Shown: in pieces, positions 2,626 to 47,064 of the stretch
How positions within the stretch are numbered: position 1 is the first letter of the stretch
Layout: each line of letters starts with the position of its first letter
DNA from: Siphonodentalium dalli
Lineage: Eukaryota; Mollusca; Scaphopoda; Gadilida; Siphonodentaliidae
Assembly (NCBI GenBank): GCA_032622095.1
Contig: CP136061.1
Span: forward strand, 36,275,797-36,339,796
Direction of reading: 5' to 3'
DNA: 64,000 bases
Program-made: the position numbers and the translations under genes
Notes under the pieces: generated by a model
Seen by the model: the letters and a program-made list of their open reading frames with translations, nothing else
The model's database searches: none
Told to the model about the DNA's origin: nothing

Positions 2626-3407
2626 ACATTAGAGATTTGTTTCAGAGCGACCGAACCGGACCAGCATAGTGTTCCATTTGTTTCAATGACACTTATGAAA
2701 ATGTCAACGGAAGTTGAACAGGGCGTGAGAATTATTGTCCGGCAAGTATACGGACCATTGCAACATAATTGAGACATTGGACGTAAGAAAGCAACGGTGT
2801 TTGTAAATGGAACTAGCAAACTAATAATTATAGTCCAAAGGCGCCAACATATAAGACTTTTAGTGCCCTAAAATTACGGTCCGTTGATCCCGAATTTGGA
2901 ACCTAAACCATTACATTGTTTGGGCGTGTTAGAGATTTTCCTACCTCTAAAATTATTCTCAAGAAACTTATTTTGATATCGGCGGTCAAACCCACCACAA
3001 ACCTCTTTTAACTATCACAAATTATATTAGCATTTAGAAATAGTTGAGAAATTTAAAGGGGGGATCTGCCAAAGACAAAAGTGAAAGCTGAATGTGCGCC
3101 TGTTTGAGACAGTAAAATCGTTATTTTCATCGACAGACCGTTTCTCATAATCTCATAATCATCACAATTATCATAATTCTCTCTCGTTATAGTTTCTCTT
3201 ACCCCAATCTGCGAGACCATAGCCACTCCACCAGCCGCACTTAAACAGCAACTTCTACAATACATCTAAATTAAAAACCATCTCTGACACTTATATTGAT
3301 TATCAATTGAATGCTAGGGGAGAGGAGCTCCGATAAGTTCGGCAACTTGTGCTCCGATCCTCTGTACCCACACACATATCATTTGTTATATATAATCTAT
3401 GTAATAT
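2626..3407. other. No gene recognised
   Basis: No repeat or coding similarity noticed. The last part may hold a decayed 5' portion of the retrotransposon that follows, but I could not follow a reverse transcriptase frame upstream of about 3520. Confidence 0.4.
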
Positions 3408-4928
3408 ATGTTGTATATATGGGTTACAATAAATATTTTCAAATCATCTGGCAAAGAACCATATGAAATATCCCTTAAGTTGTGTGGGGGTTTCAACAGT
3501 TGCCATTTGGTCCTTTTCTATCTACCAAGGTTATGGACATTATCTCCCCTCTTTTATATTATATATATCAATGATCTTTTGTCAAATCTAAAGTCATCGG
3601 GATATGGCCTTTCGATGCAAGGTGCAAATTGCACATGTCCAACGCATGCCGATGACATGGCACTTTTCTCTTTAACTGCATATGGACTTCAGTCTCTTGT
3701 CGATATATGTGTCGAATATAGCTTGAAATGGCGTTATAGATACAACACAAACAAAACCCATGTCATTGTTTTCAATGAAAGTGCTAACGCAGCACTTAAA
3801 CGTCATAAGAACTGGCACATGTCTTCTCATGGCCTAACAGAAACCGACAGTGTTACTCATTTAGGTATTCCGCTTGAGAAATATAATTTTCGCTCAAAAC
3901 TTGTTGACAATATTTGTACAAAAACGAAGAATGCTTTCTTCTCTTTGGCTAATGCTGGCCTGCATGCAGGCGGTATTACCCCAGCGAGCTCTCTCAAGAT
4001 TTACAAGTCCGTGGTCTTACCGCGAGGCTTATACGGTAGTGAATTTTTGTGTGGTCTCTCTCAATCGGACACTGTTCAACTAGAGAAAGCACATCGTATG
4101 TGCCTCAAACTTATACAAGGCCTCAAAACTAGGACTAGCACAGACATGGTCTTGGGTCTGCTTGGTATTCCTCCTTTAATCACATTCATTAATTGTAGAA
4201 AAGTGTCCTTGTTTTCGTCATTTTGTTTACTCGAGTCTAAAAAAACTGTTAAAGATGTATTTATTATCAGATTACTGAGCTTTTCATATGAATCCAACAC
4301 TGCATCGAAGAATGTGTTTTTTCAGGACCTATCCAGTATTCTTGATAACTGGAGTTTGTCCTCCTATATGTCTCAATACATATCAACAGCTCTGTTTCCA
4401 GAGAAAACAGTTTGGAAAACCCTATCGAAACAGGGCAGTCATGTTTGGAAATCTGAATGGTCTCACAGGGTGCGCACGGAACCCACCTTTGATAGATTTC
4501 GTTTGGTTCACAGCAGTCCAGAATTGTCGTTTTTATGGAAAGTCTGCCAAAAGTACCCAGATGAGAAGGAGTCATTTTTCATCGCGACACAGCTACTGTG
4601 TTACCGAAATTTTGCTGGCGAAACTCAGTGCCTGTTATGTGCGCGAAGTTATATAGACCTACCGCAACACATTATAGCGGTTTGCCCAGAACTTGCAGCG
4701 TCGCGTAATCATTTTTGGTATCACTTTATAGATATGTTGCCTTTAGGGGCATTTCAACTTGTGGAGTCTTTTGATCAGCAGAGACTTATTGCCCTCTTTC
4801 TAGGCTATTTGCCTATTGAACTTTTGGACATTGCATGCATTCCACCTCAAACCATATTGAGATACTTCTTGAAGGCGACTAGGGCGCTGTGGTGCGAATG
4901 GAACCATCGTTCGTCATTGGCGTCATAA
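3408..4928 (+). CDS. Non-LTR retrotransposon ORF2 fragment: reverse transcriptase C-terminal half and zinc-binding tail
   Basis: One open frame of 506 codons. The first 40 or so residues look unrelated or eroded. From residue 43 it reads TLSPLFYIIYINDLL, the RT motif before the active site. The catalytic box at 79-83 reads THADD, where most relatives have (Y/F)ADD. LKWRYRYNTNKT (106-117) and SVTHLGIPL (148-156) match the thumb and following region of CR1/Jockey-like reverse transcriptases. The tail has C408-x2-C411-x9-H421-x4-C426, the C-terminal zinc-binding motif common in these ORF2 proteins. Endonuclease and RT fingers are absent, so the copy is 5'-truncated, as usual for target-primed insertion. 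The ATG given is only the first in the open frame and is unlikely to be a true start. No poly-A tail was identified. Confidence 0.85.
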   Translation: MLYIWVTINIFKSSGKEPYEISLKLCGGFNSCHLVLFYLPRLWTLSPLFYIIYINDLLSNLKSSGYGLSMQGANCTCPTHADDMALFSLTAYGLQSLVDICVEYSLKWRYRYNTNKTHVIVFNESANAALKRHKNWHMSSHGLTETDSVTHLGIPLEKYNFRSKLVDNICTKTKNAFFSLANAGLHAGGITPASSLKIYKSVVLPRGLYGSEFLCGLSQSDTVQLEKAHRMCLKLIQGLKTRTSTDMVLGLLGIPPLITFINCRKVSLFSSFCLLESKKTVKDVFIIRLLSFSYESNTASKNVFFQDLSSILDNWSLSSYMSQYISTALFPEKTVWKTLSKQGSHVWKSEWSHRVRTEPTFDRFRLVHSSPELSFLWKVCQKYPDEKESFFIATQLLCYRNFAGETQCLLCARSYIDLPQHIIAVCPELAASRNHFWYHFIDMLPLGAFQLVESFDQQRLIALFLGYLPIELLDIACIPPQTILRYFLKATRALWCEWNHRSSLAS

Positions 4929-23391: not shown

Positions 23392-23397
23392 CGTGTA
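23392..23397 (+). repeat. Target-site duplication CGTGTA, left copy
   Basis: The six bases CGTGTA directly precede the palindromic element and recur immediately after it at 33011-33016. The unoccupied version of this site (CGTGTA once) is present on the minus strand at 34522-34527. Confidence 0.9.
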
Positions 23398-23419
23398 AGA
23401 AGAATAGATGCCTCGTTAC

Positions 23420-23570
23420 TCTCACATCTAAAAATAGAATCTTTGGGGTCTAAAATTGGTTGTGGGTGTCTCGTTACCTTCACATCTAAAAATAGAATCT
23501 TTGGGTCTAAAAATTGTTTGAGGGTAAAATTGTTTGAGGGTAAAATTGGTTGTACTAAAATATTCCCAAA
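23420..23570 (+). repeat. Subterminal repeats of left arm, TAGAATCTTTGGGTCTAAAA
   Basis: CATCTAAAAATAGAATCTTT followed by GGGTCTAAAA occurs twice here, next to GAGGGTAAAATTG repeats and GGTTGTACTAAAATATTCCC. The same block recurs once near the palindrome centre (28009-28065) in the same orientation, and in mirror image in the right arm. Confidence 0.9.
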
Positions 23571-23932
23571 ATATCAAAACCCAAAATATTTTTTCAAAAC
23601 CCAAAACTTCCAAAATTTCAAAAACTTCCAAAATTTCAAAAACTTTCAAATATTTCAAAAATTTCAAAAACTTTCAAATATTTCAAAAATTTCAAAAACT
23701 TCCAAAATTTCCAGAATTTCCAAAACTTCCAAAATTTCCAAAACTTCCAAAATTTCCAAAATTTCCAAAATTTCCAAAACTTACAAAATTTCCAAAACTC
23801 CAAAAATTTCCAAAATTTCCAAAATTTCCAAAATTTCCAAAACTTCCAAAATTTCCAAAACTCCAAAAATTTCCAAAACTTCCAAAATTTCAAAAATTTC
23901 AAAAATTTCCAAAACTTCCAAAATTTCAATAT
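23570..23932 (+). repeat. TTCCAAAA / TTTCAAAAA minisatellite, left arm
   Basis: About 360 bp of AAACTTCCAAAATTTCC-type units. Long open frames on both strands (Lys/Ile/Ser/Phe- or Trp/Lys/Phe-rich) are a by-product of the repeat. The mirror array in the right arm (32580-32816) is about 108 bp shorter. Confidence 0.95.
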
Positions 23933-24025
23933 AATGAAGATGACGAGCAACCAATTTTCGACTGGCCTGAGGCATTACGTTATGGAATGAATAACGACAG
24001 CGGATCAGAATGCATACATATAGTA

Positions 24026-24140
24026 CGTCACTTGGACATTTTATCAGTTTATCACGTGATCACTAAATGTGGCAATCGGGTATCCACCGATGCCTGCAAT
24101 ATATTATTTATAATAATTGGACTCATTGATCTCACGTGAA
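24026..24140 (+). repeat. 115-bp direct repeat, copy 1 of left arm
   Basis: Starts AGTACGTCACTTGGAC, contains TATCACGTGATCAC, ends GATCTCACGT. Repeated at 25639-25754 with one or two changes. Neighbouring blocks (AATGAAGAGCGTTGAAC at about 24284, 26021 and 26298) are also reiterated, so the arm grew by internal duplication. Confidence 0.9.
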
Positions 24141-24565
24141 TAATACTCTTAGTTGTTCCAATAAAATAGTTATCAAATTCGATCACCAATAGATTTGACT
24201 GTGGAATGTAAGGACCTTTAACTTATTTATCGATCTAAAGGGACACTCATTATGAATGAATGTTAACAATACAAGCGCACGAATGAAGAGCGTTGAACAT
24301 ATACGAAATTACTACACGAATGAATTGAACCTTGAAATTTATATTTTCAAATCTTACCAACAACAGCTACAGACATAATCATAGTATTATACTGTCTTGC
24401 ATGTACACACGCTATGACATCATTAAAGGCGGACAATCCACTCACGGTGTGACAACAGATACGGACATAGGCATGGTGTTATACAGTCTTCTATGTACCC
24501 ACGCTATGACACCATTAACGTACATTGGATGTTAGGTATATGACTCTTGAGTATGTACCGATCAA

Positions 24566-25368
24566 TGAGCAAATGAGCAAAAAACTGAGCAAATGAGCAA
24601 GAAAATGAGCAAATGAGCAATAAAAATGAGCAAATGAGCATAAAAATGAGCAAATGAGCAAGAAAATGAGCAAATGAGCAAGAAAATGAGCAAATGAGCA
24701 ATAAAAATGAGCAAATGAGCAAGAAAATGAGCAAATGAGCAAGAAAATGAGCAAATGAGCATAAAAATGAGCAAATGAGCAAAAAAATGAGCAAATGAGC
24801 AATAAAAATGAGCAAATGAGCAAGAAAATGAGCAAATGAGCAAGAAAATGAGCAAATGAGCAATAAAAATGAGCAAATGAGCAAAAAAATGAGCAAATGA
24901 GCAAGAAAATGAGCAAATGAGCAATAAAAATGAGCAAATGAGCAAATAAATGAGCAAATGAGCAAGAAAATGAGCAAATGAGCAATAAAAATGAGCAAAT
25001 GAGCAAATAAATGAGCAAATGAGCAATAAAAATGAGCAAATGAGCAAACAAATGAGCAAATGAGCAATAAAAATGAGCAAATGAGCAAATAAATGAGCAA
25101 ATGAGCAAAAAAATGAGCAAATGAGCAAATAAATGAGCAAATGAGCAATAAAAATGAGCAAATGAGCAAAAAAATGAGCAAATGAGCAATAAAAATGAGC
25201 AAATGAGCAAATAAATGAGCAAATGAGCAAAAAAATGAGCAAATGAGCAAATAAATGAGCAAATGAGCAAGAAAATGAGCAAATGAGCAAATAAATGAGC
25301 AAATGAGCAAAAAAATGAGCAATAAAATGAGCAAATGAGCAATAAAAATGAGCAAATGAGCAAAAAAA
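24566..25368 (+). repeat. ATGAGCAA minisatellite, left arm
   Basis: About 800 bp of ATGAGCAAATGAGCAA followed by AAAA, GAAA, TAAA or TAAAAA in varying order. On the minus strand all three frames are open and read as LLICSF/FAHFLAH repeats. Three equally open frames argue against translation. The mirror copy is at 31155-31955. Confidence 0.95.
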
Positions 25369-25638
25369 TGGGCATACCTGTATGTAGGCCTACCAGTGGA
25401 TGAATAGTCTGCCGGAGAAGTACTGTGTAGACAGGTCTTGTCAGTAAGAGAGTCAGACGATAAGTGAAGGCTCGGCTATTAAAACATAGTAATGCGATAG
25501 CGAACATCAAACGAGTCTGCGCACGCATATCTGTCAAAGGATACGATGGCAGTCATTGGTCAATTTATCCCCGGTGTCAGCTCAGTACCCAATCGGGACG
25601 AAGCCGAAGGTCAACTCATTTTTTTTTTGCTCATTATA

Positions 25639-25754
25639 GTACGTCACTTGGACATTTTATCAGTTTATCACGTGATCACTAAATGTGGCAATCGGGTATC
25701 CACCGATGCCTGCAATTTATTATTTATAATAATTGGACTCATTGATCTCACGTA
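25639..25754 (+). repeat. 115-bp direct repeat, copy 2 of left arm
   Basis: Near-identical to 24026-24140. The 260 bp between the ATGAGCAA array and this repeat are unique within the arm and contain no recognisable gene. Confidence 0.9.
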
Positions 25755-26659
25755 AATAATACTCTTAGTTGTTCCAATAAAATAGTTATCAAATTCGATC
25801 ACCAATAGATTTGACTGTGGAATATAATGACCTTTAACTTATTCATCGATCTATGTTAGAACATGGTCTTAACAAAAAACTTGACCATAACAAAAATTAC
25901 CTTACATTTATGCATGAATCTAATTAGACCATACGTAAATATTGTCAGCTTATCGTATGATGAGCAAATCCGATGTTTATCAAAAATAGTACAACTTCCA
26001 GTTGGTAATTACTCTTACGAATGAAGAGCGTTGAACATATACGAAATTACTACACGAATGAACTGAAATTTATATTTTCACATCTTACCAACAACAGATA
26101 CAGACATAGTCATAGTGTTATACTATCTTACATGTACCCATGCTATGACATCATTCGAAGGGGCAATACACTCAAGGAGTTAAAGTGACACGAAACAAGG
26201 GACGTGATGTAATATTGGTGTTTGAATCTTAAAGGAACACAAGACACTCTAAAGGGACACTCATTATGAATGAATGTTAACAATACAAGCGCACGAATGA
26301 AGAGCGTTGAACATATACGAAATTACTACACGAATGAATTGAACCTTGAAATTTATATTTCACATCTTACCAACAACAGCTACATGCATTATCATAGGGT
26401 TATACTGTCTTGCATATACACACGCTATGACATCATTAAAGGCGGACAATCCACTCACGGTGTGACAACAGATACAGACATAGGCATAGTGTTATACAGT
26501 CTTCTATGTACCAATGCTATGACATAATTAAAGGGGGATAATACACGCACGGTGTGGAATGTTAAAGTGACACGCGGTAAGGGACGGGATGTAATATTGG
26601 TGAAACCCCCTCCCCACTTATAGATATACAACGAAGACGAGAATAACATGTTGATGAAG

Positions 26660-26665
26660 TTTATT
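26660..26665 (-). terminator. AATAAA polyadenylation signal, left-arm 189-aa gene
   Basis: AATAAA on the minus strand, a few bases after the 189-aa stop codon. Mirror at 29859-29864. Confidence 0.6.
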
Positions 26666-26670
26666 GAAAT

Positions 26671-27240
26671 TTAATCATTGTCTGAATCTTCGACCGTTAG
26701 ATTTACTTCTAAGAGTTTCTTGAATTTTCTCATCGCTTCATCTGCAGCCCATTCATTATTATATCCGTGTTTGGTCAGTTTGACCATTTTCTTCATGATC
26801 ATGGTATGTATGCGTGATGTTTTCAATCGATACTGGTATTCTATTAATCGTCTATAACTTTTGAGAAACAGAGCAAACTCTGTGTCGATGGTATCCTCTT
26901 TTCCCGACATGCTCTCATCTCCCGAAATGCTCTCTTCTTCTTTCACATCATTGGTGACGCGTTTCATCATACTTTTGAATGTGTCCATCTCGTTGACACA
27001 TCGCGCAGCTTTCTTAAGACCGAATACCGTTCTACTACCGACGCCATTACCATCTTCTGAATCTGATAGCGTTCCACGTTCATCTTCATCTGAATCTAGA
27101 ACCGCTTCGTCAGATTCATCGGTATCTTCTCCGAAGAGAGTTGGTTTTGTCTCGGACATAACTCCGTGTTTAATCTGTTTATGTCTTTGTAGATTGTAGT
27201 TCGTCGATAAAATAATGCCACATAAATCACACCCGTGCAT
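26671..27240 (-). CDS. C2H2 zinc-finger acidic protein, 189 aa, left-arm copy
   Basis: Identical in sequence to the right-arm copy at 29284-29853. It opens with a classic C2H2 finger at the extreme N-terminus: C4-x2-C7-x12-H20-x4-H25. Residues 37-62 are Asp/Glu/Ser-rich, as are 97-115. The last 70 residues are basic and probably helical (RRLIEYQYRLK, KKMVKLTKH). This layout suggests a nuclear, nucleic-acid or chromatin-associated protein, but no enzyme motif is visible. A TATAAGAG box lies 28 bases upstream of the ATG and AATAAA follows the stop. It lies downstream of the 108-aa gene on the same strand. I do not recognise the family; small zinc-finger proteins do occur in virus-like transposons, which is only suggestive. 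Intact and identical in both arms. Confidence 0.7.
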   Translation of the reverse strand: MHGCDLCGIILSTNYNLQRHKQIKHGVMSETKPTLFGEDTDESDEAVLDSDEDERGTLSDSEDGNGVGSRTVFGLKKAARCVNEMDTFKSMMKRVTNDVKEEESISGDESMSGKEDTIDTEFALFLKSYRRLIEYQYRLKTSRIHTMIMKKMVKLTKHGYNNEWAADEAMRKFKKLLEVNLTVEDSDND

Positions 27241-27421
27241 TATCGCGAATTATTGGAAGAACCATCACTCTTATAAGTAGCGATAAAAAGAGAGAATAAG
27301 GTGCGGTATACAACCGTCGCTCTAAGAGTACGTTCGTCCCGGGGCTAGGGTATAGATATTTGACCGCCGGTGATTCAATTAATGCCAATTTATCAGTATG
27401 GTACTCTATGTATTCATTCAT
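27227..27421 (-). CDS. Possible 64-aa small protein, left-arm copy
   Basis: Starts at ATG seven bases after the 108-aa stop and overlaps the first 14 bases of the 189-aa gene in another frame. The C-terminal half has a hydrophobic stretch (SLFLSLLIRVMVLPII) that could span a membrane. The promoter-like TATAAGAG of the next gene lies inside it, which weakens the case. It may simply be an open intergenic spacer. Confidence 0.3.
   Translation of the reverse strand: MNEYIEYHTDKLALIESPAVKYLYPSPGTNVLLERRLYTAPYSLFLSLLIRVMVLPIIRDNARV
27268..27275 (-). promoter_or_regulatory. TATAAGAG box before the 189-aa gene, left arm
   Basis: TATAAGAG 28-35 bases before the ATG, so a normal TATA-to-start spacing would place transcription start close to the start codon. 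The same eight bases precede the 108-aa gene. Confidence 0.5.
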
Positions 27422-27428
27422 GATTTGG

Positions 27429-27755
27429 CTAATCGTATGACACTGCTCTTTTCATTTTCTTCTTATTATTATTAGACAAACCTCCATCAGACACTCTCTT
27501 GTTGGTTTGTTTGGACGCTTTACGTGTGTTTGTCAACTTATTTGCTGCAACTTCAGCCTTAGCCATTTCAATCGCTTGAGCGATGGGTGTCACCACGTTA
27601 ATAAGTGGTTTTAGAACGTCTTCTTCACTATCACTAGTTTTAGTTTTGTCAATAAAGTATCGACCCTGATTATCTGGCATTAACTTCCCATCAACCATAT
27701 CTCTGAAATGTTTTCTCCACATTTCAATATCTGCTGGAATATACGGGATCGACAT
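27429..27755 (-). CDS. Unrecognised 108-aa protein, left-arm copy
   Basis: Identical to the right-arm copy at 28769-29095. The N-terminus (MSIPYIPADIEMWRKHFRDM) is followed by a G-x-Y-F-I-D segment near residue 31, an acidic SDSEED patch (41-46), an Ala/Glu-rich helix around 57-75 and a lysine-rich tail (NNNKKKMKRA), a likely nuclear or nucleic-acid-binding sequence. The opening resembles short MxIPYxPA starts I recall from proteins of invertebrate virus-like elements, but I cannot name a family. A TATAAGAG box lies about 61 bases before the ATG. It is the first of two or three genes in a row on this strand, with the 189-aa gene next. Confidence 0.65.
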   Translation of the reverse strand: MSIPYIPADIEMWRKHFRDMVDGKLMPDNQGRYFIDKTKTSDSEEDVLKPLINVVTPIAQAIEMAKAEVAANKLTNTRKASKQTNKRVSDGGLSNNNKKKMKRAVSYD

Positions 27756-27815
27756 GTTTCTTCAAAATGTACAAGTCACTCTTTTTTCTGCATTTTATTT
27801 TAGAAAGTTTATCGC

Positions 27816-27823
27816 CTCTTATA
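27816..27823 (-). promoter_or_regulatory. TATAAGAG box before the 108-aa gene, left arm
   Basis: TTTTATAAGAGGCGATA on the minus strand, 61-68 bases upstream of the ATG, sharing TATAAGAG with the box of the 189-aa gene. Confidence 0.5.
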
Positions 27824-27966
27824 AAAATCGATTATTGGCCATGAATGCCAAATGCACCATGATAGTTATCGATGTCAATAATGCGTTTCGTTGAGATCTT
27901 GATTGAGTATGCACCAATCAATGAGCAAATAAATGAGCAAGCAGGATGTTATGTCGCTTGGTGGCG

Positions 27967-28185
27967 GAGGTAGCATCACCAAATTACCCTCGGGGGACCT
28001 CATTCTGCCATCTAAAAATAGAATCTTTGGGTCTAAAATTGGTTGTACTAAAATATTCCCAAAAACCCAAAACTTCAAAAATTTCAAAAAACTTCAAAAA
28101 TTTCAAAAAATTTCAAAAACTTCAAAAATTTCAAAAACTTCAAAAATTTCAAAAAACTTCAAAAATTTCAAAAACTTCAAAAATA
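27967..28185 (+). repeat. Centre-proximal block of left arm: hairpin half, subterminal repeat, TTCAAAAA array
   Basis: Reads GGTAGCATCACCAAATTACC then ACCTCATTCTGC (half of the 17852 palindrome), then CATCTAAAAATAGAATCTTT plus GGGTCTAAAATTGG (terminal-type repeat), then TTCAAAAATTTCAAAAA units up to 28185. The block reproduces terminal sequence at the inner end of the arm. Confidence 0.85.
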
Positions 28186-28189
28186 AGAC

Positions 28190-28335
28190 CCCGGCGGCGG
28201 AGGCGGCGGCGGCGCCGCCGCCGGTATTTTACTGCGGGGTCCGCCGGCGGCGGACCCCGGCGGCGGCGGCGGAGGCACCGCCGCCGCAGTAAAATACCTG
28301 CGCCGCCGCCGACGCCGCCGCCGCCGCCGCCGGGG
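28190..28335. repeat. CGG/CCG-rich centre of the palindrome
   Basis: About 145 bp of (CGG)n / (CCG)n. The two halves are not exact mirrors here, although GTATTTTACTGCGG (28224) and CCGCAGTAAAATAC (28286) are. Within it GGTCCGCCGGCGGCGGACC (28238-28256) is a small hairpin of its own. The centre lies near 28262. Confidence 0.9.
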
Positions 28336-28338
28336 TCT

Positions 28339-28557
28339 TATTTTTGAAGTTTTTGAAATTTTTGAAGTTTTTTGAAATTTTTGAAGTTTTTGAAATTTTT
28401 GAAGTTTTTGAAATTTTTTGAAATTTTTGAAGTTTTTTGAAATTTTTGAAGTTTTGGGTTTTTGGGAATATTTTAGTACAACCAATTTTAGACCCAAAGA
28501 TTCTATTTTTAGATGGCAGAATGAGGTCCCCCGAGGGTAATTTGGTGATGCTACCTC
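28339..28557 (-). repeat. Centre-proximal block of right arm (mirror)
   Basis: Exact reverse complement of 27967-28185 as far as I can read. Confidence 0.85.
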
Positions 28558-28700
28558 CGCCACCAAGCGACATAACATCCTGCTTGCTCATTTATTTGCT
28601 CATTGATTGGTGCATACTCAATCAAGATCTCAACGAAACGCATTATTGACATCGATAACTATCATGGTGCATTTGGCATTCATGGCCAATAATCGATTTT

Positions 28701-28708
28701 TATAAGAG
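28701..28708 (+). promoter_or_regulatory. TATAAGAG box before the 108-aa gene, right arm
   Basis: Mirror of 27816-27823, 61-68 bases before ATG 28769. Confidence 0.5.
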
Positions 28709-28768
28709 GCGATAAACTTTCTAAAATAAAATGCAGAAAAAAGAGTGACTTGTACATTTTGAAGAAAC

Positions 28769-29095
28769 ATGTCGATCCCGTATATTCCAGCAGATATTGA
28801 AATGTGGAGAAAACATTTCAGAGATATGGTTGATGGGAAGTTAATGCCAGATAATCAGGGTCGATACTTTATTGACAAAACTAAAACTAGTGATAGTGAA
28901 GAAGACGTTCTAAAACCACTTATTAACGTGGTGACACCCATCGCTCAAGCGATTGAAATGGCTAAGGCTGAAGTTGCAGCAAATAAGTTGACAAACACAC
29001 GTAAAGCGTCCAAACAAACCAACAAGAGAGTGTCTGATGGAGGTTTGTCTAATAATAATAAGAAGAAAATGAAAAGAGCAGTGTCATACGATTAG
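28769..29095 (+). CDS. Unrecognised 108-aa protein, right-arm copy
   Basis: Same protein as 27429-27755 with no amino-acid difference, transcribed away from the palindrome centre. The start is the ATG in GAAGAAACATGTCG; the stop TAG lies seven bases before the next ATG. The upstream 110 bases to the end of the repeat block contain the TATAAGAG box and an AT-rich leader. Function unknown. The conserved pair of copies shows that both arms keep the same coding capacity. Confidence 0.65.
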   Translation: MSIPYIPADIEMWRKHFRDMVDGKLMPDNQGRYFIDKTKTSDSEEDVLKPLINVVTPIAQAIEMAKAEVAANKLTNTRKASKQTNKRVSDGGLSNNNKKKMKRAVSYD

Positions 29096-29102
29096 CCAAA
29101 TC

Positions 29103-29297
29103 ATGAATGAATACATAGAGTACCATACTGATAAATTGGCATTAATTGAATCACCGGCGGTCAAATATCTATACCCTAGCCCCGGGACGAACGTACTCTT
29201 AGAGCGACGGTTGTATACCGCACCTTATTCTCTCTTTTTATCGCTACTTATAAGAGTGATGGTTCTTCCAATAATTCGCGATAATGCACGGGTGTGA
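29103..29297 (+). CDS. Possible 64-aa small protein, right-arm copy
   Basis: Mirror of 27227-27421 with identical translation. It has a proper ATG but no recognisable domain, and it overlaps the start of the 189-aa gene by 14 bases. Confidence 0.3.
   Translation: MNEYIEYHTDKLALIESPAVKYLYPSPGTNVLLERRLYTAPYSLFLSLLIRVMVLPIIRDNARV
29249..29256 (+). promoter_or_regulatory. TATAAGAG box before the 189-aa gene, right arm
   Basis: Mirror of 27268-27275, in context GCTACTTATAAGAGTGATGG, 28-35 bases before ATG 29284. Confidence 0.5.
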
Positions 29298-29853
29298 TTT
29301 ATGTGGCATTATTTTATCGACGAACTACAATCTACAAAGACATAAACAGATTAAACACGGAGTTATGTCCGAGACAAAACCAACTCTCTTCGGAGAAGAT
29401 ACCGATGAATCTGACGAAGCGGTTCTAGATTCAGATGAAGATGAACGTGGAACGCTATCAGATTCAGAAGATGGTAATGGCGTCGGTAGTAGAACGGTAT
29501 TCGGTCTTAAGAAAGCTGCGCGATGTGTCAACGAGATGGACACATTCAAAAGTATGATGAAACGCGTCACCAATGATGTGAAAGAAGAAGAGAGCATTTC
29601 GGGAGATGAGAGCATGTCGGGAAAAGAGGATACCATCGACACAGAGTTTGCTCTGTTTCTCAAAAGTTATAGACGATTAATAGAATACCAGTATCGATTG
29701 AAAACATCACGCATACATACCATGATCATGAAGAAAATGGTCAAACTGACCAAACACGGATATAATAATGAATGGGCTGCAGATGAAGCGATGAGAAAAT
29801 TCAAGAAACTCTTAGAAGTAAATCTAACGGTCGAAGATTCAGACAATGATTAA
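29284..29853 (+). CDS. C2H2 zinc-finger acidic protein, 189 aa, right-arm copy
   Basis: Identical to the left-arm copy: N-terminal C2H2 finger (C4, C7, H20, H25), two acidic serine-rich stretches, basic helical C-terminus. The minus strand opposite is also open for 112 codons (29325-29663), which is a shadow. AATAAA follows the stop at 29859. It is the last gene of the arm before the duplicated non-coding blocks begin. Confidence 0.7.
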   Translation: MHGCDLCGIILSTNYNLQRHKQIKHGVMSETKPTLFGEDTDESDEAVLDSDEDERGTLSDSEDGNGVGSRTVFGLKKAARCVNEMDTFKSMMKRVTNDVKEEESISGDESMSGKEDTIDTEFALFLKSYRRLIEYQYRLKTSRIHTMIMKKMVKLTKHGYNNEWAADEAMRKFKKLLEVNLTVEDSDND

Positions 29854-29858
29854 ATTTC

Positions 29859-29864
29859 AATAAA
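29859..29864 (+). terminator. AATAAA polyadenylation signal, right-arm 189-aa gene
   Basis: Lies six bases after the stop codon, in TTTCAATAAACTTCATC. Confidence 0.6.
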
Positions 29865-30769
29865 CTTCATCAACATGTTATTCTCGTCTTCGTTATATAT
29901 CTATAAGTGGGGAGGGGGTTTCACCAATATTACATCACGTCCCTTACCGCGTGTCACTTTAACATTCCACACCGTGCGTGTATTATCCCCCTTTAATTAT
30001 GTCATAGCATTGGTACATAGAAGACTGTATAACACTATGCCTATGTCTGTATCTGTTGTCACACCGTGAGTGGATTGTCCGCCTTTAATGATGTCATAGC
30101 GTGTGTATATGCAAGACAGTATAACCCTATGATAATGCATGTAGCTGTTGTTGGTAAGATGTGAAATATAAATTTCAAGGTTCAATTCATTCGTGTAGTA
30201 ATTTCGTATATGTTCAACGCTCTTCATTCGTGCGCTTGTATTGTTAACATTCATTCATAATGAGTGTCCCTTTAGAGTGTCTTGTGTTCCTTTAAGATTC
30301 AAACACCAATATTACATCACGTCCCTTGTTTCGTGTCACTTTAACTCCTTGAGTGTATTGCCCCTTCGAATGATGTCATAGCATGGGTACATGTAAGATA
30401 GTATAACACTATGACTATGTCTGTATCTGTTGTTGGTAAGATGTGAAAATATAAATTTCAGTTCATTCGTGTAGTAATTTCGTATATGTTCAACGCTCTT
30501 CATTCGTAAGAGTAATTACCAACTGGAAGTTGTACTATTTTTGATAAACATCGGATTTGCTCATCAGACGATAAGCTGACAATATTTACGTATGGTCTAA
30601 TTAGATTCATGCATAAATGTAAGGTAATTTTTGTTATGGTCAAGTTTTTTGTTAAGACCATGTTCTAACATAGATCGATGAATAAGTTAAAGGTCATTAT
30701 ATTCCACAGTCAAATCTATTGGTGATCGAATTTGATAACTATTTTATTGGAACAACTAAGAGTATTATT

Positions 30770-30885
30770 TACGTGAGATCAATGAGTCCAATTATTATAA
30801 ATAATAAATTGCAGGCATCGGTGGATACCCGATTGCCACATTTAGTGATCACGTGATAAACTGATAAAATGTCCAAGTGACGTAC
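30770..30885 (-). repeat. 115-bp direct repeat, right arm copy near the genes
   Basis: Mirror of 25639-25754; the second right-arm copy is at about 32376-32490. Confidence 0.85.
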
Positions 30886-31154
30886 TATAATGAGCAAAAA
30901 AAATATGAGTTGACCTTCGGCTTCGTCCCGATTGGGTACTGAGCTGACACCGGGGATAAATTGACCAATGACTGCCATCGTATCCTTTGACAGATATGCG
31001 TGCGCAGACTCGTTTGATGTTCGCTATCGCATTACTATGTTTTAATAGCCGAGCCTTCACTTATCGTCTGACTCTCTTACTGACAAGACCTGTCTACACA
31101 GTACTTCTCCGGCAGACTATTCATCCACTGGTAGGCCTACATACAGGTATGCCC

Positions 31155-31955
31155 ATTTTTTTGCTCATTTGCTCATTTTTATTGCTCATTTGCTCATTTT
31201 ATTGCTCATTTTTTTGCTCATTTGCTCATTTATTTGCTCATTTGCTCATTTTCTTGCTCATTTGCTCATTTATTTGCTCATTTGCTCATTTTTTTGCTCA
31301 TTTGCTCATTTATTTGCTCATTTGCTCATTTTTATTGCTCATTTGCTCATTTTTTTGCTCATTTGCTCATTTTTATTGCTCATTTGCTCATTTATTTGCT
31401 CATTTGCTCATTTTTTTGCTCATTTGCTCATTTATTTGCTCATTTGCTCATTTTTATTGCTCATTTGCTCATTTTTTTGCTCATTTGCTCACTTTTATTG
31501 CTCATTTGCTCATTTATTTGCTCATTTGCTCATTTTTATTGCTCATTTGCTCATTTTCTTGCTCATTTGCTCATTTATTTGCTCATTTGCTCATTTTTAT
31601 TGCTCATTTGCTCATTTTCTTGCTCATTTGCTCATTTTTTTGCTCATTTGCTCATTTTTATTGCTCATTTGCTCATTTTCTTGCTCATTTTCTTGCTCAT
31701 TTGCTCATTTTTATTGCTCATTTGCTCATTTTTTTGCTCATTTGCTCATTTTTATGCTCATTTGCTCATTTTCTTGCTCATTTGCTCATTTTCTTGCTCA
31801 TTTGCTCATTTTTATTGCTCATTTGCTCATTTTCTTGCTCATTTGCTCATTTTCTTGCTCATTTGCTCATTTTTATGCTCATTTGCTCATTTTTATTGCT
31901 CATTTGCTCATTTTCTTGCTCATTTGCTCAGTTTTTTGCTCATTTGCTCATTGAT
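31155..31955 (-). repeat. ATGAGCAA minisatellite, right arm
   Basis: Mirror of 24566-25368. Unit order differs in places from the left arm, for example GCTCATTTTCTTGCTCATTT at about 31669-31700. The frame-wide LLICSF-type open frames are repeat artefacts. Confidence 0.95.
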
Positions 31956-32579
31956 CGGTACATACTCAAGAGTCATATACCTAACATCCAATGTACGTTA
32001 ATGGTGTCATAGCGTGGGTACATAGAAGACTGTATAACACCATGCCTATGTCCGTATCTGTTGTCACACCGTGAGTGGATTGTCCGCCTTTAATGATGTC
32101 ATAGCGTGTGTACATGCAAGACAGTATAATACTATGATTATGTCTGTAGCTGTTGTTGGTAAGATTTGAAAATATAAATTTCAAGGTTCAATTCATTCGT
32201 GTAGTAATTTCGTATATGTTCAACGCTCTTCATTCGTGCACTTGTATTGTTAACATTCATTCATAATGAGTGTCCCTTTAGATCGATAAATAAGTTAAAG
32301 GTCCTTGCATTCCACAGTCAAATCTATTGGTGATCGAATTTGATAACTATTTTATTGGAACAACTAAGAGTATTATTCACGTGAGATCAATGAGTCCAAT
32401 TATTATAAATAATATATTGCAGGCATCGGTGGATACCCGATTGCCACATTTAGTGATCACGTGATAAACTGATAAAATGTCCAAGTGACGTACTATATGT
32501 ATGCATTCTGATCCGCTGTCGTTATTCATTCCATAACGTAATGCCTCAGGCCAGTCGAAAATTGGTTGCTCGTCATCTT

Positions 32580-32816
32580 CATTATATTGAAATTTTGGAA
32601 GTTTTTGAAATTTTGGAAGTTTTTGAAATTTTGGAAATTTTGGAAGTTTTGGAAATTTTGGAAGTTTTGGAAATTTTGGAAGTTTTGGAAATTCTGGAAA
32701 TTTTGGAAGTTTTTGAAATTTTTGAAATATTTGAAAGTTTTTGAAATTTTTGAAATATTTGAAAGTTTTTGAAATTTTGGAAGTTTTTGAAATTTTGGAA
32801 GTTTTGGGTTTTGAAA
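32580..32816 (-). repeat. TTCCAAAA minisatellite, right arm
   Basis: Mirror of 23570-23932 but about 108 bp shorter, the largest difference between the arms. Confidence 0.95.
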
Positions 32817-33010
32817 AAATATTTTGGGTTTTGATATTTTGGGAATATTTTAGTACAACCAATTTTACCCTCAAACAATTTTACCCTCAAACAATTTTTA
32901 GACCCAAAGATTCTATTTTTAGATGTGAAGGTAACGAGACACCCACAACCAATTTTAGACCCCAAAGATTCTATTTTTAGATGTGAGAGTAACGAGGCAT
33001 CTATTCTTCT

Positions 33011-33016
33011 CGTGTA
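33011..33016 (+). repeat. Target-site duplication CGTGTA, right copy
   Basis: Follows the terminal TTCT of the palindrome and continues into TGTAATTTCACATG, the sequence that follows CGTGTA in the unoccupied copy. Confidence 0.9.
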
Positions 33017-35769: not shown

Positions 35770-38189
35770 GCTTATGATACACGAATAGTTTTGGCCTGGC
35801 TGTTGTCTGTCTGAGTGTCTGTCTGAGTACTTTTTGTAGAAACGACAGCAGAGTATATGACTGGTTGAGTTGATGGTCGAGCACCAACTATTTTCTTTGC
35901 AACGAAATATGATAGATGGTTCTCAGCCTTACACCGTTGAATTTTGAATACATTGTCCCATATGTCCATGAACGATCCATTGCATCATGTGAACCTTGAC
36001 AATTTGAAAAATTTAATTATCATGACCAGAAACAGAACAGCGTGTACATAGGGTTTCTTTACCTTTACAATGTTCTTGGCCATGACTGTATCCCGGACAT
36101 TTAAAACACCGCAGGGGATTTGGAACATATGTAGAACAATCTGTCTCCATATATCCAACCTTCAATATGGGCGGACGTTCGCACCGATTGAAAGTCAAAA
36201 GATAACTATGCAAAGGAACTTTTAGTCCATAAACTGTCTTAGAAAATATGCGAACATCAGCAACTCCACGTGGTACCACTTCGTCCAGTATCTCCGACAA
36301 AGAAGAGCGGAGATATCGCCGGTTCTAAAAACTCCTATTTGTGAGTATTTAGTATAGAAAGGGTTAAACTTATTATCTGAACATTTCCTAAGGAAACTAC
36401 TCATCAATGAGTATTTAATATAGAAAGGGTTAAACTTATTATCTGAACATTTCCTATGGGATAACTACTCATTAATGATGCTTTAGTATATGGTTAAATC
36501 CTATGGGATAACTACTCGTCGATGATGCTTCAGCATATAAAGGGTTAAACCTATTATATGAACATTTCCTGTGGGATAACTACTCGTCAATGATGCTTAA
36601 TATATACAGGGTTAAACATATTATCTGAACAGTTCCTGTGGGATAACTACTCATTGATGCTTTAGTATATAAATGGTTAAACTTATTATCTGAACATTTC
36701 CTAAGGGATAACTACTCATCAATGATGCTTTAGTATATAGATGGTCAAACTGACTATCTGAACATTTCCTATGGGATAATTACTCATGAATGATGCTTCA
36801 GCATATAAAGGGTTAAGTATAGAACGGGTTAATCTGAACATTTCCTATGGGATAAATACTCATCAATGATGCTTTAGTATAGACAGGGTTAAACTTATTA
36901 TCTGAACATTCCTATGGGATAACTACTCACCAATGATGCTTTGGTATAGAAAGGGTTAAACATATTATCTGAACATTTCCTAAGGGATAAATACTCATCA
37001 ATGATGCTTTAGTATAGACAGGGTTAAACTTATTATCTGAACATTCCTATGGGATAACTACTCACCAATGATGCTTTGGTATAGAAAGGGTTAAACATAT
37101 TATCTGAACATTTCCTATGGGATAACTACTCACCAATGATGCTTTAGTATAGAAAGGGTTAAACATATTATCTGAACATTTCCTATGTGATAACTACTCA
37201 TCAATGATGCTTTGGTATAGAAAGGGTTAAACTTATTATCTGAACATTTCCTATGGGATAACTACTCACCAATGATGCTTTAGTGTAGAAAGGGTTAAAC
37301 TTATTATCTGAACATTTCCTATGGGATAACTACTCATCAATGATGCTTTAGTATATAGATGGTCAAACTGACTATCTGAACATTTCCTATGGGATAATTA
37401 CTCATGAATGATGCTTCAGCATATAAAGGGTTAAGTATAGAACGGGTTAATCTGAACATTTCCTATGGGATAAATACTCATCAATGATGCTTTAGTATAG
37501 ACAGGGTTAAACTTATTATCTGAACATTCCTATGTGATAACTACTCATCAATGATGCTTTGGTATAGAAAGGGTTAAACTTATTATCTGAACATTTCCTA
37601 TGGGATAAATACTCATCAATGATGCTTTAGTATAGAAAGGGTTAAACTTATTATCTGAACATTCCTATGGGATAACTACTCATCAATGATCCTTTGGTAT
37701 AGAAAGGGTTAAACTTATTATCTGAACATTTCCTATGGGATAAATACTCATCAATGATGCTTTAGTATAGAAAGGGTTAAACTTATTATCTGAACATTCC
37801 TATGGGATAACTACTCATCAATGATGCTTTGGTATAGAAAGGGTTAAACTTATTATCTGAACATTTCCTATGGGATAACTACTCATCTATTCAATGTTTT
37901 GTGATGGGCAACCGTGACTGGGGTTTGTGTAATATTTGTTATCTGAAATTTCTTTGAACATTCAAGCATGATAGAGCCAGTCACTGGCCCGGACCTGATC
38001 GGTTTGACATATTTCAATTGTCCACCAATACTTTGATGTGTCTTATCAATGAAACATACAGAAGGTATGTTAACAGTCGGGTCGAAGCTACGAACCAAGT
38101 ACTGAGGGAATACCCCAGCATCATTGGACATAAGTGAGTCATCATTCTTACGATCAGGTCGTGTTTGTTTTTTTTATTTCAGTTGCCAT
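35770..38189 (-). pseudogene. Non-LTR retrotransposon ORF1 (gag-like, CCHC zinc knuckles), decayed and split by a satellite array
   Basis: Minus strand. A probable start ATG at 38187-38189 reads MATEIKK, then a run of eight A shifts frame into TRPDRKNDDSLMSNDAGVF. N-terminal part to about 37890 ends TQTPVTVAHHKTLN. The 36335-37890 array interrupts. Coding resumes RRYLRSSLSEILDEVVPRGV (about 36336-36280), then LLTFNRCERPPILKVGY, NPLRCFKC and a CCHC knuckle (CFKCPGYSHGQEHC) with a second started (CTRCSVSGHDN). A frame change at about 36000 leads to DIWDNVFKIQRCKAENHLSY and a Ser/Thr/Gln tail ending near 35772. This order, Pro-Asn-Pro-Leu-Arg-Cys-Phe-Lys-Cys box included, is typical of ORF1 nucleic-acid-binding proteins of Jockey/CR1-like elements. 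No ORF2 follows; MITE copy C does. It may or may not belong with the RT at 3408. Confidence 0.8.
36335..37890 (+). repeat. 68-bp satellite array inside the ORF1 pseudogene
   Basis: About 22-23 units of ATGATGCTTTAGTATAGAAA, GGGTTAAACTTATTATCTG, AACATTTCCTATGGGATAAC, TACTCATCA. A block of roughly 600 bp with distinctive variants (GATGGTCAAACTGACTATC, then AAGGGTTAAGTATAGAACGG) occurs twice (about 36720 and 37340), a higher-order repeat. Every unit contains TAGTATAGAAAGGGTTAA, the right terminus plus TTAA of the piggyBac-type MITE at 59625-60343. Confidence 0.95.
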
Positions 38190-44539: not shown

Positions 44540-44820
44540 TTTGATTACCACAGAAAGGATGTCTCACTATCTCACTTCAAAGCATGATATATCGATAACA
44601 ATGTTTTTCTTGAAGTTTCTTTTAACTTTGATGCTGAATTGAATTACAATGGAGAAAAACGACCCCTGTCGAGTTGGATATTCGTGGATTCGAGCATGGA
44701 AAGAGTTTGTGAACTCGCCGGCAAGGCGGCTCGTTCGCAATCAGTTATCATCTCGAATCGTCGAATATCCAACTCGACAGGGTTCGTTTGACCCCTAATT
44801 GGACACGTTTCGCATAAAGA
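44540..44820 (+). repeat. Direct repeat flanking the satellite array, left copy
   Basis: TCTCACTATCTCACTTCAAA, GCATGATATATCGATA, GAATTACAATGGAGA and TCGAATATCCAACTCGACAG all recur in order at 47840-48060 on the other side of the array. Confidence 0.85.
44664..44782. repeat. 119-bp palindrome, CCCTGTCGAGTTGGATATTCG arms
   Basis: Outer arms CCCTGTCGAGTTGGATATTC and complement, next GATTCGAG / CTCGAATC, then a loop around AACTCGCCGGCAAGGCGGC. The right half recurs at 47998-48031 with changes. Confidence 0.85.
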
Positions 44821-47064
44821 ACTACTACTGATAAGAATTACTAATATGGGACAACGTCATTAATATACCCAATAGTAATCGCATAATTAACTACTACTGA
44901 TAATAATTACGAATATGGTACGTCAATAATACCTAATAGTAGTCGCATAATGAACTACTACTGATAATTATTACGAATATGGTACAACGCCGTTAATACC
45001 TAATAGTAGTCGCATAATGAATTACTACTGATAAGAATTACGAATATGGTACACCGTCATTAATACCTAATAGTAGTCGCATAATGAACTACTACTGATA
45101 AGAATTACGAATATGGTACAAGGTCATTAATACCTAATAGTAGTCGCATAATGAACTACTACTGATAAGAATTACGAATATGGTACACCGTCATTAATAC
45201 CTAATAGTAGTCGCATAATGAACTACTACTGATAAGAATTACGAATATGGTACAAGGTCATTAATACCTAATAATAGTCGCATAATGAACTACTACTGAT
45301 CAGAATTACGAATATGGTACAAGGTCATTAATACCTAATAGTAGTCGCATAATGAACTACTACTGATAAGAATTACGAATATGGTACACCGTCATTAATA
45401 CTACCTAATAGTAGTCGCATAATGAACTACTACTGATAAGAATTACGAATATGGTACAAGGTCATTAATACCTAATAATAGTCGCATAATGAACTACTAC
45501 TGATAAGAATTACGAATATGGTACAAGGTCATTAATACCTAATAGTAGTCGCATAATGAACTACTACTGATAAGAATTACGAATATGGTACAAGGTCATT
45601 AATACCTAATAGTATTCGCATAATGAACTACTACTGATAAAAATTACGAATATGGTACTTCATTAATACCTAATAGTAGTCGCATAATGAGCTACTACTG
45701 ATAAAAATTACGAATATGGTACTTCATTAATACCTAATAGTAGTCGCATAATGAACTACTACTGATAAAAATTACGAATATGGTACTTCATTAATACCTA
45801 ATAGTAGTCGCATAATGAACTACTACTGATAAGATTTACGAATATGGTACGTCATTAATACCTAATAGTAGTCGCATAATGAACTACTACTGATAAAAAT
45901 TACGAATATGGTACTTCATTAATACCTAATAGTAGTCGCACAATGAACTACTACTTATAAAAATTACGAATATGGTACTTCATTAATACCTAATAGTAGT
46001 CGCATAACGAACTACTACTGTAAGAATTACGAATATGGTACAAGGTCATTAATACCTAATGTTAGTCGCATAATGAACCACTACTGATAATTATTACGAA
46101 TATGGTACAACGCCGTTAATACCTAATAGTAGTCGCATAATGAACTACTACTGATAAGAATTACGAATATGGTACAAGGTCATTAATACCTAATAGTAGT
46201 CGCATAATGAACTACTACTGATAAGAATTACGAATATGGTACAAGGTCATTAATACATAATAGTAGTCGCATAATGAACTACTACTGATAATAATTACGA
46301 ATATGGTACGTCATTAATACCTAATGGTAGTCGCATAATGAACTACTACTGATAACAATTACGAATATGGTACTTCATTAATACCTAATAGTAGTCGCAC
46401 AATGAACTACTACTGATAAAAATTACGAATATGGTACTTCATTAATACCTAAAAGTAGTCGCATAACGAACTACTACTGGTAAGAATTACGAATATGGTA
46501 CGTCATTAATACCTAATGTTAGTCGCATAATGAACCACTACTGATAATTATTACGAATATGGTACAACGCCGTTAATACCTAATAGTAGTCGCATAATGA
46601 ACTACTACTGATAAGAATTACGAATATGGTACAAGGTCATTAATACCTAATAGTAGTCGCATAATGAACTACTACTGATAAGAATTACGAATATGGTACA
46701 AGGTCATTAATACCTAATAGTAGTCGCATAATGAACTACTACTGATAAGAATTACGAATATGGTACAAGGTCATTAATACATAATAGTAGTCGCATAATG
46801 AACTACTACTGATAATAATTACGAATATGGTACGTCATTAATACCTAATAGTAGTCGCATAATGAACTACTACTGATAAGAATTACGAATACGGTACAAT
46901 GTCATTAATACCTAATAGTAGTCGCATAATGAACTACTACTGATAATAATTACGAATATGGTACGTCATTAATACCTATTAGTAGTCGCATAATGAACTA
47001 CTACTGATAATAATTACGAATATGGTACGTCATTAATACCTATTAGTAGTCGCATAATGAACTA
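44805..47064 (+). repeat. 63-67-bp satellite array, AACTACTACTGATAAGAATT units
   Basis: About 34 units of GTCGCATAATGAACTACTAC, TGATAAGAATTACGAATATG, GTACAAGGTCATTAATACCT, AATAGTA. A variant block (ATGTTAGTCGCATAATGAACC next to GTACAACGCCGTTAATACC) recurs at about 46055 and 46520, a higher-order repeat of roughly 460 bp. The unit equals the terminal region of the inverted-repeat element at 59252-59613. Confidence 0.95.

Follow-up and report, generated by a model that had tools for sequence, protein, structure and literature searches.

A stretch of the genome of the scaphopod Siphonodentalium dalli (contig CP136061.1, positions 36,275,797 to 36,339,796; 64,000 nucleotides, here called the window) carries an element that has Polinton-type ends and is nearly its own mirror image. 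What kind of element is this, and how would such a genome be copied? An earlier note on this DNA had read it as the integrated form of one defective, symmetric minigenome that borrowed its polymerase and integrase in trans. The answer we favor, and consider likely, is a non-autonomous satellite of Polintons whose genome is self-complementary and is copied in trans, through a combination of protein-primed strand displacement and hairpin fold-back. The architecture of the window element (Polinton-type ends, 6-bp duplications, mirror symmetry and a T-shaped hairpin, hereafter T, at the axis) and the co-evolution of the family's arms are directly established.

Symmetry, ends and family of the element

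The palindrome measures 9,613 bp (window 23398-33010). The two inverted arms claimed by the earlier note are present and 99.3% identical (4,715 of the 4,747 columns in the alignment). Apart from the central 28201-28323, the differences amount to 12 substitutions plus two indels of 108 and 8 nt, each within a tandem array. The inverted termini and the 6-bp duplication outside them were likewise verified in the window sequence: the ends read AGAAGAATAGATGCC and GGCATCTATTCTTCT, mirroring each other, and CGTGTA flanks the element on both sides. Inverted ends of the type 5'-AG...CT-3' define the Polinton family, and a passage of PMC10045372 gives the Polinton target-site duplication as 6 bp. Mis-assembly would mirror the flanks as well, whereas those of the window element are unlike each other and bear the duplication in direct orientation. 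The features are as follows (window positions).

23392-23397, no strand: target-site duplication CGTGTA, left (sequence check)
33011-33016, no strand: target-site duplication CGTGTA, right (sequence check)
23398-28260, plus strand: left palindrome arm, 4,863 bp (arm alignment)
28261-33010, minus strand: right palindrome arm, 4,750 bp (arm alignment)
23398-23684, plus strand: Polinton-type end, left; ~290 bp at 87% identity to autonomous elements, first 163 nt at 98-99%
32724-33010, minus strand: Polinton-type end, mirror copy (arm alignment)
24564-25374, plus strand: minisatellite (AATGAGCAAATGAGCAAAAA)n, left arm (tandem-repeat analysis)
31150-31952, minus strand: minisatellite, mirror in right arm (tandem-repeat analysis)
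28009-28185, plus strand: partial copy of the end sequence near the centre, in direct orientation and running into a CGG stretch

Such a second partial end copy adjoins the axis in each arm, oriented like the outer end.

Relatives were sought in the host assembly (2.23 Gb, nine contigs) with the terminal 163 nt as probe. The 40 matches scored, out of 1,321 candidates, formed 19 inward-facing pairs (window included) and two single ends, giving a sample of 21 elements: the window element, 18 other pairs and the two singles. The second end of E20 was located within its locus; that of E21 was not found there. Eighteen of the 21 elements, window included, are palindromes, a share biased by the choice of elements for similarity to the window end. 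The mirrored share of the left half is at least 96% in 10 palindromes, 86-94% in 3 and 52-57% in another 3 (E12, E15 and E18); E15 and E18 each have a gene interrupted in just one of the arms, as a later insertion would do. The arms of E20 and E21 differ by 0.04% and 0.11%, respectively, over ~2.7 kb. The non-palindromic members are E8 (19.2 kb), E13 (16.6 kb) and E10 (6.0 kb). E10 (L015, C7:56196343-56202365) has terminal repeats of ~1.0 kb and interior sequence of the palindromes without the T, and looks like a palindrome that lost the T plus the interior of one arm.

The flanking 6-mers are identical in 17 of the 20 elements having both ends and in 0 of 380 cross-element pairings. In E6 and E11, the duplication is present after an extra TCT; E14 is the only element of the 20 without one. 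The other palindromic copies with different 6-bp duplications that the earlier note had proposed to look for were therefore found. Element ends begin (AGA)2ATAG, and 2 of the 40 ends of these 20 elements, the right ends of E6 (L017) and E11 (L030), have a third AGA beyond which the duplication starts; in E3, E5 and E10, a third AGA forms part of the duplication (partly read by eye). Adenovirus initiates opposite an inner triplet and then jumps back; a slip of one triplet would leave such a pattern, and the extra triplet of E6 and E11 hints, in two cases, at a possible trace of jumping-back in protein priming.

Instead of the one defective genome first proposed, these elements make up an abundant family: the exact end motif occurs 585 times in the host genome and the T pattern at 291 places, with no occurrence of either reversed control pattern. 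A survey of the first 100 of the 585 end places (contig C1, and C2 to 79.1 Mb) yielded 47 paired elements; the exact end pattern overlooks an end subtype reading CTCGTTGG, and 26 of the 44 T motifs in the surveyed range fall outside the paired set. The exact T motif is present in 18 of the 47, all of 6.5-11.4 kb. Among the 29 without it, 12 measure 16.1-16.6 kb, the size of E13, and 14 measure 4.7-12.2 kb. PolB, among the matches listed, lies inside 8 of the 47 paired elements and in none of the 18 that bear the T.

Arms that change together

Arm differences were compared over four separate stretches, with both arms available from 8, 14, 20 and 5 elements; the 20-element stretch includes the three non-palindromes, compared by their terminal repeats. 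Columns at which the two arms of one element differ numbered 23, 10, 4 and 11 (48 in total), and none was common to two elements. Columns at which elements differ but both arms agree numbered 43, 30, 8 and 9 (90 in total); the minority state was held by two or more elements in 39 of these and by one element in 51. The 48 private differences between arms and the 90 differences shared by both arms indicate that a change in one arm reaches the other before or during spread. Judged from these alignments, the arms are re-copied from each other, and co-evolving arms are what fold-back copying predicts.

The main alternative for this co-evolution is that the host keeps the arms alike within the chromosome, by gene conversion or cruciform repair that is independent of element replication. 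Long chromosomal palindromes do undergo conversion, and conversion in place would likewise yield the 51 both-arm differences confined to one element. However, the 39 differences whose minority state occurs in two or more elements imply that homogenized states were passed on through transposition, although conversion may have preceded each transposition, and the one-arm insertions splitting genes in E15 and E18 were neither removed nor copied. We regard this explanation as unlikely.

It also seems improbable to us that the family consists of DNA transposons of the foldback kind, in which the terminal repeats are very long, the Polinton integrase moves the element in double-stranded form and the palindrome is a frozen accident of history with no role in copying. 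Foldback-type transposons have other ends and another duplication length. They do resemble the window family in their very long, array-containing inverted repeats (FB, Galileo), those of Galileo being described in parts of PMC3573991 as long, internally repetitive and Foldback-like, and the window arms contain tandem arrays; the window family differs in having genes in both arms and a conserved axis. If the arms were ordinary terminal repeats, arm differences should follow the arm, yet 0 of 48 were shared between elements; a conserved T at the axis and Polinton-type ends and duplications also argue against this explanation.

A T-shaped hairpin at the axis

The "CGG-rich centre" noted earlier is indeed a GC-rich axis, and can now be specified as an asymmetric hairpin (no strand assigned):

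28224-28297: T-shaped hairpin, 74 nt, asymmetric; stem of GTATTTTACTG (28224-28234) and CAGTAAAATAC (28287-28297)
28236-28258: hairpin arm B of the T, GGGGTCCGCC-GGC-GGCGGACCCC
28259-28285: hairpin arm C of the T, GC-rich, its length varying mostly in steps of three

Folding of single-stranded DNA predicted a three-way junction in six of seven copies (z of -7.0 to -13.2 over all seven). When subfamilies are compared, T motifs show 91-96% identity, whereas the raw identity of the adjacent 150 bp is 49-62% in 8 of 10 pairs; in the other two pairs (E1/E5 and E2/E14), T and flanks are both alike. At 15 further T loci beyond the fetched elements (three supplied by the search and twelve hand-picked from its list), the flanks are mirrored over at least 76% in 12. 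The T lies within 0.45-0.55 of element length in 15 of the 18 T-bearing elements of the pairing survey. When 26 distinct T motifs were aligned, 97.7% of pair cells were paired, compared to 37-64% for slid controls. A paired T was looked for in E8, E13 and E10, and none was found. A flip/flop inversion of the T in E3 was ruled out: its two T motifs have the same orientation and reflect a direct tandem duplication of ~497 bp. From these comparisons, we see the family as built from a constant end and a constant T, between which the contents have been exchanged.

The T invites comparison with parvoviruses: it could be a genuine telomere at which a Rep-like nickase cuts, the integrated form being an unresolved dimer of a ~4.8-kb monomer with borrowed Polinton ends. 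The unit length is ~4.8 kb, and the order stem-B-C-stem matches the A, B and C palindromes of the inverted terminal repeat (ITR) of adeno-associated virus (AAV) as set out in a section of PMC11575299. Bidnaviruses are a documented parvovirus-Polinton mix, combining Polinton replication parts with parvovirus-derived ones, and their own repeats, as far as the relevant part of PMC4061559 describes them, form no parvovirus-type hairpins. However, no nickase was found among the frames scanned with Pfam, and in the loci examined the T lies inside the element and not at an end; the six copies with a predicted T fold have it at the axis. A Parvo_NS1 search of the host genome returned 0 matches, but the same search also matched 0 of 14 controls. 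We consider a parvovirus-type replicon very unlikely; the window element is neither an autonomous Polinton nor classed as a parvovirus. An assembly or sequencing artefact is hardly credible: long reads with a missing adapter can yield false palindromes through read chimeras, but flanks differ and direct 6-bp duplications are present in 17 of 20 elements, arm differences are private to each copy, and the many loci lie on chromosome-size contigs.

Candidate helpers, cargo and a proposed mode of copying

A full Polinton with the ends of the window element, which the earlier note had suggested searching for, was found in E13 (16.6 kb). It encodes an rve integrase with a chromodomain and PolB (DNA_pol_B_2, E 7e-52), both above Pfam cut-offs; matches to an A32/AAA-type ATPase and an adenovirus-type endoprotease (E 6e-4) fall below them. 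E13 also carries genes for a TATA-binding protein (Pfam E 5e-31) and PC4 (E 4e-15):

L020:7133-7687 and L020:7669-8322, minus strand: TATA-binding protein and PC4 genes of E13 (Pfam)

Among papers mentioning both Polintons and a TATA-binding protein, no title pointed to such genes in a Polinton. Over 163 nt, the ends of E13 and E8 match those of the window element at 98% and 99%, respectively. Only PolB was matched among the genes of E8; this element has two frame sets in direct order, each sized like the TATA-binding protein and PC4 frames and each followed by a GC array (L018:7299-9403; L019:460-2575), a doubling that may explain its 19.2 kb compared to 16.6 kb. Among 48 scored PolB copies (of 2,326 candidates), 45 are without a stop. 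A PDB sequence search with PolB gave no match.

Between the window arm and the autonomous Polinton, the only parts that align are the outer ~290 bp (87%), the region of a gene that we call p108 (82%), a piece of 46 bp and some array-like or end-like sequence. Most of the window element's arm is thus not a slice of the full Polinton. Among the 14 longest matches per arm to E8 and E13, six of eight palindromic arms (E1, E3, E4, E6, E11 and E12) have a terminal repeat of 1.0-1.2 kb in common with these two elements. By its ends, its duplication and the helper sharing those ends, the window element classifies as a non-autonomous Polinton derivative. We infer that E13-type elements are the helper and act in trans. 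The symmetric-minigenome reading is supported by the candidate helper and the palindromic copies found; its single defective genome is not.

Each arm has two open frames besides repeat-derived ones, p189 and p108, whose sequences are identical between arms. PolB, integrase, ATPase and protease were not seen in the window element, consistent with the earlier claim that it has no replication genes.

26671-27240, minus strand: p189 gene; acidic linker and a single C2H2-like finger that scores below the Pfam cut-off
29284-29853, plus strand: p189 gene, identical mirror copy (frame comparison, Pfam)
27429-27755, minus strand: p108 gene, 75% identical to a gene of autonomous Polintons
28769-29095, plus strand: p108 gene, identical mirror copy (frame comparison)

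In a local comparison, p108 is homologous to the autonomous Polinton gene (E 8e-49); it has no Pfam match over the cut-off. Single-sequence searches of public proteins found no relatives of p189 or p108, and a three-row profile of p108 retrieved 30 distant relatives at E ≤ 0.1. In PHROGs, p108 has one weak match (E 0.025, function unknown) and p189 none. No match to p189 was found in a PDB sequence search or among the frames of E8, E13 and E10, and viral contigs searched with p108, p189 and PolB gave no confirmed relatives. The predicted structure of p108, two helices, is uninformative (pLDDT 69.6, pTM 0.30). The ratio of nonsynonymous to synonymous substitution rates (dN/dS) was 0.52 for p189 (E2 versus E12) and 0.38 for p108 (E2 versus E13); among other pairs, two had no synonymous change and a third was saturated. 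The E3/E5 subfamily encodes a C2H2-ATPase fusion, of which the ATPase part scores just over the Pox_A32 Pfam cut-off and matches the helper ATPase (E5 subfamily; E 1.7e-31 in a small local set) and the C-terminal part is a 22% relative of p189. By these similarities, the palindromes' cargo is partly Polinton derived, the remainder being of no known Polinton origin.

Palindromes carrying PolB exist as well, and the earlier picture, limited to elements without a polymerase, was too narrow. Head-to-head pairs of PolB copies occur at two places, on C1 and C3. The C1 element has family ends at 95377025 and 95392671 (15,647 bp). Its centre (L057) forms an inverted repeat (93%) with the axis at the midpoint of the element, and both halves match the GC array that adjoins PolB in E8 and E13. 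The C3 place has the same inverted halves 192 bp apart (positions only). A GC-array probe (40 scored of 242 candidates) found palindromic halves at these 2 places and a single copy at 38. This array of the helper is GC-rich and hairpin forming (fold z -16). The matching halves indicate that at least one palindrome arose from the helper itself, at its own GC array and separately from the T lineage.

The palindromes are probably copied, via self-folding, by full Polintons of the same genome; we infer the helper's action, the priming and the fold-back in the following scheme. The PolB of a helper would initiate at an element end by protein priming and displace a strand. That strand would fold at the T into a one-ended duplex, whose open end would again be a double-stranded origin; a second priming there, with copying round the hairpin, would restore the full palindrome, each round copying one arm from the other. 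Insertion of the linear palindrome by the helper's integrase would generate the 6-bp duplication. Founding palindromes would arise where a strand snaps back at a GC-rich hairpin, on the model of the PolB-bearing palindrome.

Several observations weigh against this scheme. The outer flanks of E14 (L031/L032) are 18-bp inverted copies with no duplication, and host gene conversion between the arms could homogenize them too. The E9 copy, one of the seven folded, is predicted as one long hairpin rather than a T; the search pattern fixes the stem letters and so raises apparent T identity; and no two-sided compensatory change was found among the 26 aligned motifs, for which reason the T evidence is one of conservation, not covariation. 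Flanks are lopsided at 3 of the 15 further T loci (mirrored over 55%, 38% and 28%), and the T is off-centre in 3 of the 18 T-bearing elements (0.402, 0.422 and 0.738). A helper capsid was not recognized by sequence, the 421- and 519-aa frames of E13 being without Pfam match, and the helper's terminal protein is a guess. The 421-aa frame of E13 and the 601-aa frame of E8 had no match in PDB sequences or PHROGs.

Among known systems, Polinton/Maverick elements (polintoviruses) resemble the window element in AG...CT ends, long inverted repeats, 6-bp duplications and ends in common with a local element bearing PolB and integrase; they differ in that the window element, in which genes for PolB, integrase, ATPase and protease are absent, shows symmetry from end to end and an axial T. 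We know of no described Polinton that is symmetric with an axial T hairpin. In the openly accessible literature, with subscription papers and repeat databases outside the search, none of the paper titles listed named a palindromic Polinton and no paper was found that joined "Polinton" with "self-complementary." Defective adenovirus genomes have mirror-image ends, protein-primed strand displacement and symmetric genomes made by snap-back copying; they are not known to form an integrated lineage or to have a conserved axial hairpin. Self-complementary AAV has a T-shaped hairpin at the turn. In the portion of PMC8235507 that treats AAV snapback and self-complementary genomes, these are likewise helper dependent, one strand bearing both senses and folding to a duplex, and arise in virus stocks or by design; in contrast, the window family is integrated and multiplied, has Polinton ends in place of AAV ITRs, and no Rep was found.

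Elsewhere in the window are two satellite arrays (44810-47064, 67-bp unit × 34; 36499-37887, 68-bp unit × 20) and, at 3405-4928, a 507-aa open frame that by eye resembles part of a LINE-type reverse transcriptase. An Rfam scan of the window at gathering scores gave no match.

Polinton copying has so far been inferred from gene content, according to the sections of PMC6431247 and PMC4061559 that address it. Here, one genome contains many integrated palindromes, full Polintons whose frames are open and a conserved fold-back hairpin, making strand displacement and snap-back testable in a transposon. We put at about even the chance that this is a transposable-element class self-complementary by design, with a constant end and T, swappable cargo and a hybrid of protein-primed and hairpin-turn copying, in which one-arm cargo becomes two-arm. 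The family places ~10-kb near-perfect palindromes, which are fragile structures, into the chromosomes, probably hundreds of times. To our knowledge, the only other self-complementary genomes are those of defective virus particles and of AAV vectors made by engineering. If our interpretation is true, a heritable family of mobile elements has such genomes too, and any cargo that one arm captures would be duplicated at once.

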